The notes under the pieces are model-generated. The model saw only the letters and a list, made by a program, of their open reading frames with translations. It did not search any database and was not told where the DNA came from. Positions 22,747 through 25,961 of a stretch of DNA of 34,676 nucleotides are shown piece by piece; within the stretch, counting starts at the first letter, position 1, and the number at the start of each line of letters is the position of its first letter. Origin of the DNA: Deltaproteobacteria bacterium (GTDB taxonomy: Bacteria; Myxococcota_A; UBA9160; PR03); the NCBI GenBank assembly GCA_035063765.1, contig JAPSFT010000035.1, forward strand, positions 1 to 34,676, given 5' to 3'. Position numbers and translations under genes: made by a program.

Positions 22747-23946
<1,200 letters not shown>

Positions 23947-23974
23947 TCGGGCTCGTGGTGCGGCGGGGCGGGCC

Positions 23975-24042
23975 GAGAGCGCCGGCGGGTCGAGAGCGCC
24001 GGCGGGTCGAGGGCGCCGGCGGGTCGAGGGCGCCGGCGGGCG
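23975..24042 (+). repeat. four tandem 17-bp repeats
   Basis: The unit GAGAGCGCCGGCGGGTC occurs at 23975-23991 and 23992-24008. GAGGGCGCCGGCGGGTC follows at 24009-24025, and a fourth copy at 24026-24042 differs at its last two bases. The array runs straight into the first 118-bp unit. Its core GCGCCGGCGGG is the reverse complement of the sequence near the end of the 118-bp units. It starts 28 bases after the argG stop. Confidence 0.93.
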
Positions 24043-24513
24043 GGGACGTCCTCCTCCGCTTCGCTCGCCGCGCGCGGAGGGGGAGCTGGCGAGGACGCAG
24101 GGCGGCTTCTGGGCGCGGCTCGAAGGCGCTCCGGAGGACGTCCCCGCCCGCCGGCGCACGGGGACGTCCTCCTCCGCTTCGCTCGCCGCGCGCGCAGGGG
24201 GAGCTGGCGAGGACGCAGGGCGGCTTCGGGGCGCGGCTCGAAGGCGCTTCGGAGGGCGTCCCCGCCCGCCGGCTCACGGGGACGTCCTCCTCCGCTTCGC
24301 TCGCCGCGCGCGGAGGGGGAGCTGGCGAGGACGCAGGGCGGCTTCGGGGCGCGGCTCGAAGGCGCTCCGGAGGACGTCCCCGCCCGCCGGCGCAAGGGGC
24401 CGTCCTCCTCCGCTTCGCTCGCCGCGCGCGCAGGGCGAGCTGGCGAGGACGCAGGGCGGCTTCGGGGCGCGGCTCGAAGGCGCTCCGGAGGACGTCCCCG
24501 CCCGCCGGCGCAC
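24042..24513 (+). repeat. four tandem 118-bp units, each a large inverted repeat
   Basis: The copies lie at 24042-24159, 24160-24277, 24278-24395 and 24396-24513 and differ by only a few bases. Each begins GGGGACGTCCTCC and carries GGAGGACGTCCCC near its end, about 78 bases later; for the first copy the pairing extends to 25 perfect base pairs (24030-24054 with 24133-24157). Inner segments (CTTCG with CGAAG, CCGCGC with GCGCGG) lengthen the possible stem. Since 118 is not a multiple of three, the array would shift reading frame at each copy, so it is unlikely to code for protein. It fills most of the 629-base gap between convergent argG and the UbiB-like gene; I see no gene in the flanks 23947-23974 and 24514-24575. 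Possible roles are an extragenic palindromic element, a bidirectional transcription end or a structured RNA. Confidence 0.95.
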
Positions 24514-24575
24514 GGGCTTGCGTGCGGGTCGGGAGGGCGCTTCGCGCGCGGGCGGATGCGTTCGCGCGCCGTTTC

Positions 24576-25961
24576 CTAATCGTGCTCCGCCAGCCAGCGC
24601 AGCAGGTAGGGGAGGGTGGTGCGCATGAGGTCGGCGTCGGGGTCGAGCTGCTCGCCGAGGGCGAAGAGGTAGGAGAGGGTCTTCGCCCAGAGCAGCAGGT
24701 CGTTCGGGAGCTGGAGGCCGGGGGTCTCGCCGAGCAGGCGCTTGGCCTCGTCCTTGAGCGCGAGCACCTGGCCGCCGCCCATGCCGAGAGGGGCGCCCGC
24801 GCTGCGGATGCGCGCGAACATCTCCTCGACGGCGCGGCGTACGCCCTCGCGCGCGCCGGGCGCGATCATGCCGACGCGCTCCATGCCGTCCAGGAAGCCG
24901 TCCACGTCCTGGCGCAGGAGCGCGTGGACCCCGAGCCGCATCTCGCGGCGCAGGGCGGGGTCGAGGCGCTTCGAGAGGCCGAAGTCCACGAAGAGCAGGC
25001 GCGGGCGCACGGCGGCGTCGGGCTCGTCGATCACGAACAGGTTGCCCGGGTGCGGGTCGGCGTGGAAGAGGCCGTCCACGAAGACCTGGCGTGCGTAGGC
25101 GCGGCCGAGCACCGCCACGAGCTCGCGCCGCGGGACGCCGCGCGCCTCGAGGGCCGCGCGGTCGCCGATCGGCAGCACCGGCAGCCAGTCGACGGTGAGC
25201 ACGCGCCGCCCCGACAGCGCAGGGTGTACGCGGGGCACCACCACCTGGGCCTCCCCCGCCAGGTTGGCGGCGATCTCGCCGGCCACCGCCGCCTCGTGCA
25301 CGAAGTCGAGCTCCTCGGCGAGGCCGGCGGCGAACTCGGCGAGCAGCCGCCGGCGGTCGGGGGTGGCGCCGCCGCCGAGCCAGCCGAGCAGGCGCCGCGT
25401 CCAGGCGAGGTCGGCGGGCAGCGAGTGCGCGAGCCAGGGGTACTGCACCTTGACGGCCACCTCGCCCCCGCCGTGCAGGCGCGCGCGGTGCACCTGCGCC
25501 ACCGAGGCCGCGCCGATCGGGGCCGGCTCGAAGTGGGCGAAGAGCGCCCCGAGCGGGGCGCCGAGCTCCTCCTCGACGACCGCCGCCACCTCGGCGAAGG
25601 GGAGCGGGGGCACCTGGTCCTGGAGGCTTCCGAAGGCGGCGCGCACCTCGGGCGCGAGGAGGTCCACGCGCAGCGAGACGAACTGGCCGGCCTTCGCGAA
25701 CGGGCCCTTGAGCTCGCCGAGCAGGCGGGCGAGGCGCCGGGCCGCGGCGTGGCGGCGCGTGGCCCGGCGCCGGGCGCGCCGCGCCGCGCCGCCGAAGAGG
25801 TCGCCGCAGCGTCCGGCCGCCTCGCCGAGCGCCAGGGCGGCGCCGCAGCCGGCGAGCCGGAGCCCCTGCGTCACGCCGAGGGCGCGCAGCGCGAATCGGG
25901 CGCGGCCACGCGGGCGTCCATCCAGGGTCAGCGGCGAGGGGGTCGGCGTGGAGGCATCCAT
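24576..25961 (-). CDS. ABC1/UbiB-family atypical protein kinase-like protein
   Basis: A 461-residue member of the UbiB/ADCK family, ATPases linked to ubiquinone and other isoprenoid-lipid metabolism. The family-specific KxGQ motif is in GPFAKAGQFVSLR (Lys90 to Gln93). The Ala-rich nucleotide loop is PIGAASVAQVHRA (about 148-160), the conserved Lys171 lies in VAVKVQYP, then ELDFVHEA, the catalytic loop LFHADPHPGNLFV and the metal-binding LFVDFGLSKRLD. The N-terminus is basic. I do not see the two C-terminal membrane helices of classic UbiB, so it may be a soluble or peripheral relative. No other quinone gene is nearby. Its start lies within 5 bases of the -35 box of the divergent propeller gene, so the two may share control. 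Confidence 0.88.
   Translation of the reverse strand: MDASTPTPSPLTLDGRPRGRARFALRALGVTQGLRLAGCGAALALGEAAGRCGDLFGGAARRARRRATRRHAAARRLARLLGELKGPFAKAGQFVSLRVDLLAPEVRAAFGSLQDQVPPLPFAEVAAVVEEELGAPLGALFAHFEPAPIGAASVAQVHRARLHGGGEVAVKVQYPWLAHSLPADLAWTRRLLGWLGGGATPDRRRLLAEFAAGLAEELDFVHEAAVAGEIAANLAGEAQVVVPRVHPALSGRRVLTVDWLPVLPIGDRAALEARGVPRRELVAVLGRAYARQVFVDGLFHADPHPGNLFVIDEPDAAVRPRLLFVDFGLSKRLDPALRREMRLGVHALLRQDVDGFLDGMERVGMIAPGAREGVRRAVEEMFARIRSAGAPLGMGGGQVLALKDEAKRLLGETPGLQLPNDLLLWAKTLSYLFALGEQLDPDADLMRTTLPYLLRWLAEHD

Follow-up and report, generated by a model that had tools for sequence, protein, structure and literature searches.

A small dispersed family of extragenic palindromes with mirror-matched arms, tandemly duplicated between argG and a UbiB-like gene

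Introduction

The ERIC/IRU (127 bp) and YPAL (168 bp) families are palindromic repeats of enterobacteria (PMC2229807, PMC2267715). REPs measure 20–40 bp, carry a GTAG or CGTC tag, lie mostly between convergent or unidirectional genes, and are sometimes clustered (PMC3733652). Two further systems bear on how the stems of such palindromes stay paired. Template switching has been described as creating, and possibly maintaining, hairpin stems (PMC8794818), and in the terminators of Bacillus cereus, 79% of the switches are G-U-capable, with G-U as the usual intermediate (PMC5381666).

The palindrome described here lies in a window of 34,676 nucleotides, which is the whole stretch of DNA that was analyzed, and we refer to it and its relatives as family A. 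Family A adds a new, small family to an established kind of repeat, the ERIC/YPAL-like extragenic palindromic repeats, and what makes it interesting is the mirror evolution of its arms. This kind comprises dispersed intergenic palindromes of 100–170 bp that encode no protein, and family A has these features at three loci in two genomes, all of them intergenic. Like ERIC/YPAL and the stem-loop families (PMC2267715), it is around 127 bp long, forms one long stem-loop, and is likely transcribed at gene ends. However, family A has a high G+C content and only three loci, against tens to hundreds for those families, its arms vary between copies yet stay perfect, it forms a tandem array, and its host is a different one. 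Assignment to ERIC proper was rejected, as ERIC has 5'-TA ends and is A+T-rich (the latter stated for most such repeats), whereas the element begins with GC and the array has a G+C content of 81%.

With REP and RAYT-TIR elements (PMC3733652), family A shares extragenic palindromes, convergent-gene gaps, and clustering, but it is 126 bp long and has neither a GTAG tag nor a neighboring transposase. A REP proper would carry an unpaired GTAG or CGTC end tag; GTAG is absent, and CGTC occurs inside the arms, with none unpaired at the ends. Nor is it a member of a MITE family by the features tested, as MITEs have constant terminal inverted repeats, whereas the arms differ among all three loci. Two other classes were rejected: integron attC arrays, as there is no GTTRRRY and neither GTT nor AAC in the array; and CRISPR arrays, as the units follow one another directly and match at 95% along their full length.

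A complete palindrome and three truncated copies

Tandem Repeats Finder detected four 118-bp tandem units at 24031–24516 (period 118, 4.1 copies, 95% matches, no indels), which confirmed the array of near-identical units reported in the first-pass annotation. Its placement between the 3' ends of argG and a UbiB-like gene is borne out by the flanking gene coordinates (Table 1), the 13-base matching arms are present, and the annotation was right on copy 2 (G-U change) and copy 4 (true mismatch). The unit boundaries, however, have to be redrawn. Copy 1 has perfect 25-bp arms, giving a full element of ~126 bp, and the 13-bp arm is a truncated form. When 435 kb of the genome were simulated with a first-order Markov model, chance alone gave perfect arms of up to 16 bp, and an arm of 25 bp is far beyond this. 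The inner complementary segments, which together with the arms had been proposed to let every unit fold into a long hairpin or cruciform, are weaker: copies 2 and 3 (z of −0.78 and −1.63) fold little better than shuffles, whereas copy 1 with its full arms reached a z of −5.55 on the minus strand.

Table 1 Positions of the array, its flanking genes, and other palindrome sites in the genus
Feature	Position	Strand	Remarks
argG, argininosuccinate synthase	22747–23946	+	
argG/UbiB-like gap bearing the array	23947–24575	.	629 bp
17-bp tandem repeat (GGCGGGTCGAGAGCGCC x4.4)	23967–24040	.	adjoins array on left
GAGG before family A element	window 24026–24029		
Copy 1	24030–24157	+	sole complete element; 25-bp arms, 78-nt interior
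Copy 1, left arm	24030–24054	+	GCGCCGGCGGGCGGGGACGTCCTCC
Copy 1, interior	24055–24132	+	family-conserved ends TCCRCTT... and ...TCGAAKGCGYTCC
Copy 1, right arm	24133–24157	+	exact reverse complement of left arm
Copy 2	24160–24275	+	left arm trimmed to 13 bp (24160–24172); right arm 24251–24275, one G-U type change
Copy 3	24278–24393	+	left arm trimmed to 13 bp; no mismatch in the inner 13 bp
Copy 4	24396–24511	+	left arm trimmed to 13 bp, one A-to-C mismatch
CGGG at array right end	24513–24516	+	4-bp overlap with GCGGGGACG of left arm; would explain 118-bp junction
ABC1/UbiB-like kinase gene	24576–25961	-	convergent to argG
GAGG / NYGGG sites	L118 14394–14397 and 14524–14528		
GAGG / NYGGG site	L124 17533–17536		
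Family C sites (G000)	L117 15375–15465; L119 16492–16586; L163, L171, L159, L115		
Family E sites (G001)	L127 9312; L131 12157; L132 935; L177, L178, L184, L187, L189		

At the copy-to-copy junctions, the GCGC of the right arm is followed by ACGGGGACG, and the right end of the array, GCGCACGGGCTTG, has CGGG in common with the left-arm sequence. These junctions are consistent with an origin of copies 2–4 by tandem duplication at the CGGG overlap. Such a duplication would yield a 118-bp unit and would take 12 bp off the left arm, therefore leaving copies 2–4 truncated. As such, the array is an ordinary tandem duplication, and the earlier proposal of a noncoding structural unit with tandem amplification is supported.

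As the window is one of the 57 contigs of its assembly and the array is longer than short reads, we considered that the tandem copies or the perfect arms might be an assembly artefact. The array copies differ from each other at 4–7 of 118 positions, and this lack of identity argues against a simple assembly duplication. Moreover, other loci, including some in a second assembly, likewise have perfectly mirrored arms, which makes an artefact very unlikely.

The core of the adjoining 17-bp repeat, GCGCCGGCGGG, is the same as the outer left arm of copy 1, and either may derive from the other.

Dispersed relatives of the element

The first-pass annotation had named other intergenic copies with covarying arms as support for a wider family, and searches with the unit found such loci. 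In the host genome, one further family A locus was detected on contig C8 (79% over 88 nt), and the sister genome G001 carries one on CAADGG010000083.1 (C83) of uncultured proteobacterium PRO3. Both are single and complete with perfect 24-bp arms, and the interior of the element is kept at both, with lengths of 78 and 64 nt, respectively. All three family A loci lie between convergent genes, 41–83 nt after a stop codon. The gene pairs are argG/ubiB at the array, a ThrE-like exporter and arginine deiminase at C8, and a sigma-70 factor and a pyridine nucleotide oxidoreductase in G001. Family A is thus a tiny dispersed family with three independent loci in the genus.

Across 80 genomes of the order, a covariance model with strict filters and a motif pattern returned only the six known copies, and pattern scans covering 84,980 species as well as viral contigs gave the sister genome as the sole true match outside the host genome. 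Ten other loci from these scans were rejected for want of arms, and phage and plasmid collections gave no match to the element. A weak model match (C3:101787) has no palindrome of the family A kind, and weak BLAST matches at L009, L010, and L033 are devoid of arm structure and look like coding sequence; all four were discarded. GAGG stands right before and NYGGG right after all three family A elements (n = 3), as possible end tags.

No direct repeat indicative of a target-site duplication was seen at the three family A sites (n = 3), and no dedicated transposase tied to family A was found. An alternative is that family A is a MITE or REP-like element mobilized by a Y1 (RAYT/TIRYT) transposase of its own genome. 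Such a gene (Y1_Tnp) occurs once in every member of the genus. In the host, inverted GGGGACAG / CTGTCCCC repeats of another family (C) lie on both sides of it and fit the GGGGWSAS motif (PMC3733652), and empty sites show that family A has dispersed. However, family A is not beside the Y1_Tnp gene, has no GTAG tag, and has arms that vary from copy to copy, where terminal repeats would be expected to stay the same, so that movement by this enzyme is improbable.

Arms that change in mirror image

The arm sequences differ among the three family A loci, yet each pair is Watson–Crick. In the inner 16-bp helix, 48 of 48 cells pair (100%) with no G-U pair across the three loci, and eight pairs have changed in both arms and none in a single arm only. 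Helix covariation was 0.708, compared with 0.044–0.125 in slid controls, which contained 0–1 two-sided pairs. Insertions are mirrored as well: between copy 1 and G001, one base is extra in the left arm, and its complement is extra at the mirrored spot of the right arm (alignment columns 13 and 116).

The same mirror pattern was observed in two families unrelated to family A, family B, with arms of 26 bp and an interior of 68 nt, and family D, with arms of 20 bp and an interior of 75–76 nt, which came from a scan of 1.31 Mb of two genomes for perfect arms of at least 15 bp, a scan biased towards perfect pairing. Of the host genome, the sampled stretches amount to 19%. Family D has four pairs altered in both arms and none in just one; its copies were re-found by whole-element similarity, and those of family B partly so. 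Overall, 264 of 264 arm pairs in families A, B, and D are Watson–Crick, with no G-U. Only 7 of 19 substitution switches are able to pass through G-U, and most are transversion switches; relative to the 79% of Bacillus cereus, the binomial P is 8e-5, a rough comparison given the small numbers, the related sequences, the other base composition, and a scan demanding perfect arms.

Array copies 2 and 4 carry uncorrected one-sided arm changes, as expected of young duplicates with truncated arms. Correction is therefore either not fast or limited to long arms.

Assessment of a terminator or RNA role

It had also been suggested that the array might act as a bidirectional terminator or a structured RNA, a role that our results do not support: there is no U-tract on either side of the hairpin (the longest T run downstream is 3), the window has no Rfam match above the gathering score, and relatives have no hairpin at the same junction. 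A terminator or a 3'-end stabilizing hairpin, with selection on the RNA stem keeping the arms complementary and the array multiplying the terminator, would account for the covariation of the arms, the high stability of the hairpins on both strands, and the position of every family A member shortly past a stop codon in a convergent gap, where its G+C-rich hairpin would be expected. However, hairpins are not clearly enriched at 3' ends across the host genome, and T-runs are almost absent there. With so little sign of intrinsic terminators in the genome and hairpins devoid of a U-tract, we treat termination as a rival rather than the lead. The pairing data point the same way, as the lack of G-U among the 264 arm pairs and the prevalence of transversion switches are unlike the G-U path of selected terminators. 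Bidirectional intrinsic terminators (PMC5381666) likewise are hairpins between convergent genes with compensatory changes, but family A differs in its 25-bp arms, 78-nt interior, and dispensability in relatives. Taken together, we consider a terminator role unlikely.

The position between convergent genes does not discriminate. Among long-loop palindromes in the 1.31 Mb, 9 of 12 lie between convergent genes against a base rate of 21–28% (P ~1e-4 to 1e-3, with heuristic gene calls based on third-position G+C), and this enrichment is predicted by both insertion tolerance and terminator function.

Empty junctions in relatives

The convergent argG/ubiB pair is conserved in the relatives G012 and G004, where the spacer is 13 and 22 nt, respectively, compared with 629 here, and holds no hairpin. 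Similarly, at the rpoD junction, which carries the element in G001, the spacer of G000, G002, and G005 is short. Because the same junctions have short spacers devoid of the element, the elements are lineage-specific and dispensable.

At the matching sigma-70 junction of G011 (L149 2787–2906), there is an unrelated palindrome with perfect 22-bp arms and a 76-nt interior.

Origin and maintenance of the element

The three genus loci have a common interior, and their arms are perfect inverted repeats with mirror-image differences between loci; all three occupy convergent gaps, and orthologous junctions are empty. We regard it as probable that a dispersed extragenic palindromic element of ~126 bp was gained in this lineage between argG and ubiB, had its arms re-matched by template switching, and was amplified to four copies. 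In the proposed mechanism, the hairpin would form during replication and one arm would be copied onto the other, whereby an arm mutation would be either erased or mirrored on both sides at once and the arms would be kept identical at the DNA level. The 118-bp repeats may then have come from slippage or unequal exchange at the CGGG overlap. The effect on the cell is probably slight, as convergent gaps contain no promoters and the element would be tolerated there. In RNA form, it is predicted to be a strong 3' hairpin, which might delay RNA decay or hinder transcription from the opposite direction.

Hairpins maintained by template switching (PMC8794818) likewise have perfect stems and mirrored changes with no G-U intermediates seen, although they were described in microRNA and rRNA genes, whereas the present ones are dispersed bacterial palindromes with 20–26 bp arms. 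Against template switching, family A has only three independent loci, and no ancestral series traces a switch event through its stages. Intermediates could also be hidden by strong selection on pairing.

Compensatory stem changes are usually taken as a sign of functional RNA. Here the substitutions and one insertion are mirrored, no G-U step is seen, and the elements concerned are dispensable and absent from relatives. As a tentative extension, less likely than not, several unrelated palindrome families of the genus may keep their 20–26 bp arms complementary while drifting, with template switching outpacing point mutation; they would then be self-perpetuating DNA structures and not selected RNAs. 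Should template switching be responsible, RNA function in bacterial palindromes would be overestimated from covariation alone, and the palindrome families of this genus would be a natural test set.

Other palindromes in the genus

Family D is nested in a larger palindrome of ~190 bp with outer arms like CAGGCTTGCCGAAAATCGGCC (L125, L128, L129, and L185; G001). Family C palindromes, GGGGACAG[A/T]CCCGGCGAT..., have 14 motif copies in 835 kb (G000), and the inverted copies on either side of the host's single Y1 transposase gene (L135 909 and 1985) look like a TIR-type RAYT element. Family E in G001 consists of hairpins with perfect 39–46 bp arms and 1–3 nt loops, CGTCAAGAAAGGGG[C/T]CGGGTT..., which are present in many copies and often lie at most 30 nt from gene ends. 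In addition, G003, from the same taxonomic family, carries a different 104-bp palindromic unit in 1.9 tandem copies directly after its sigma-70 gene (L148 2742–2944), and tandem arrays of extragenic palindromes thus recur.
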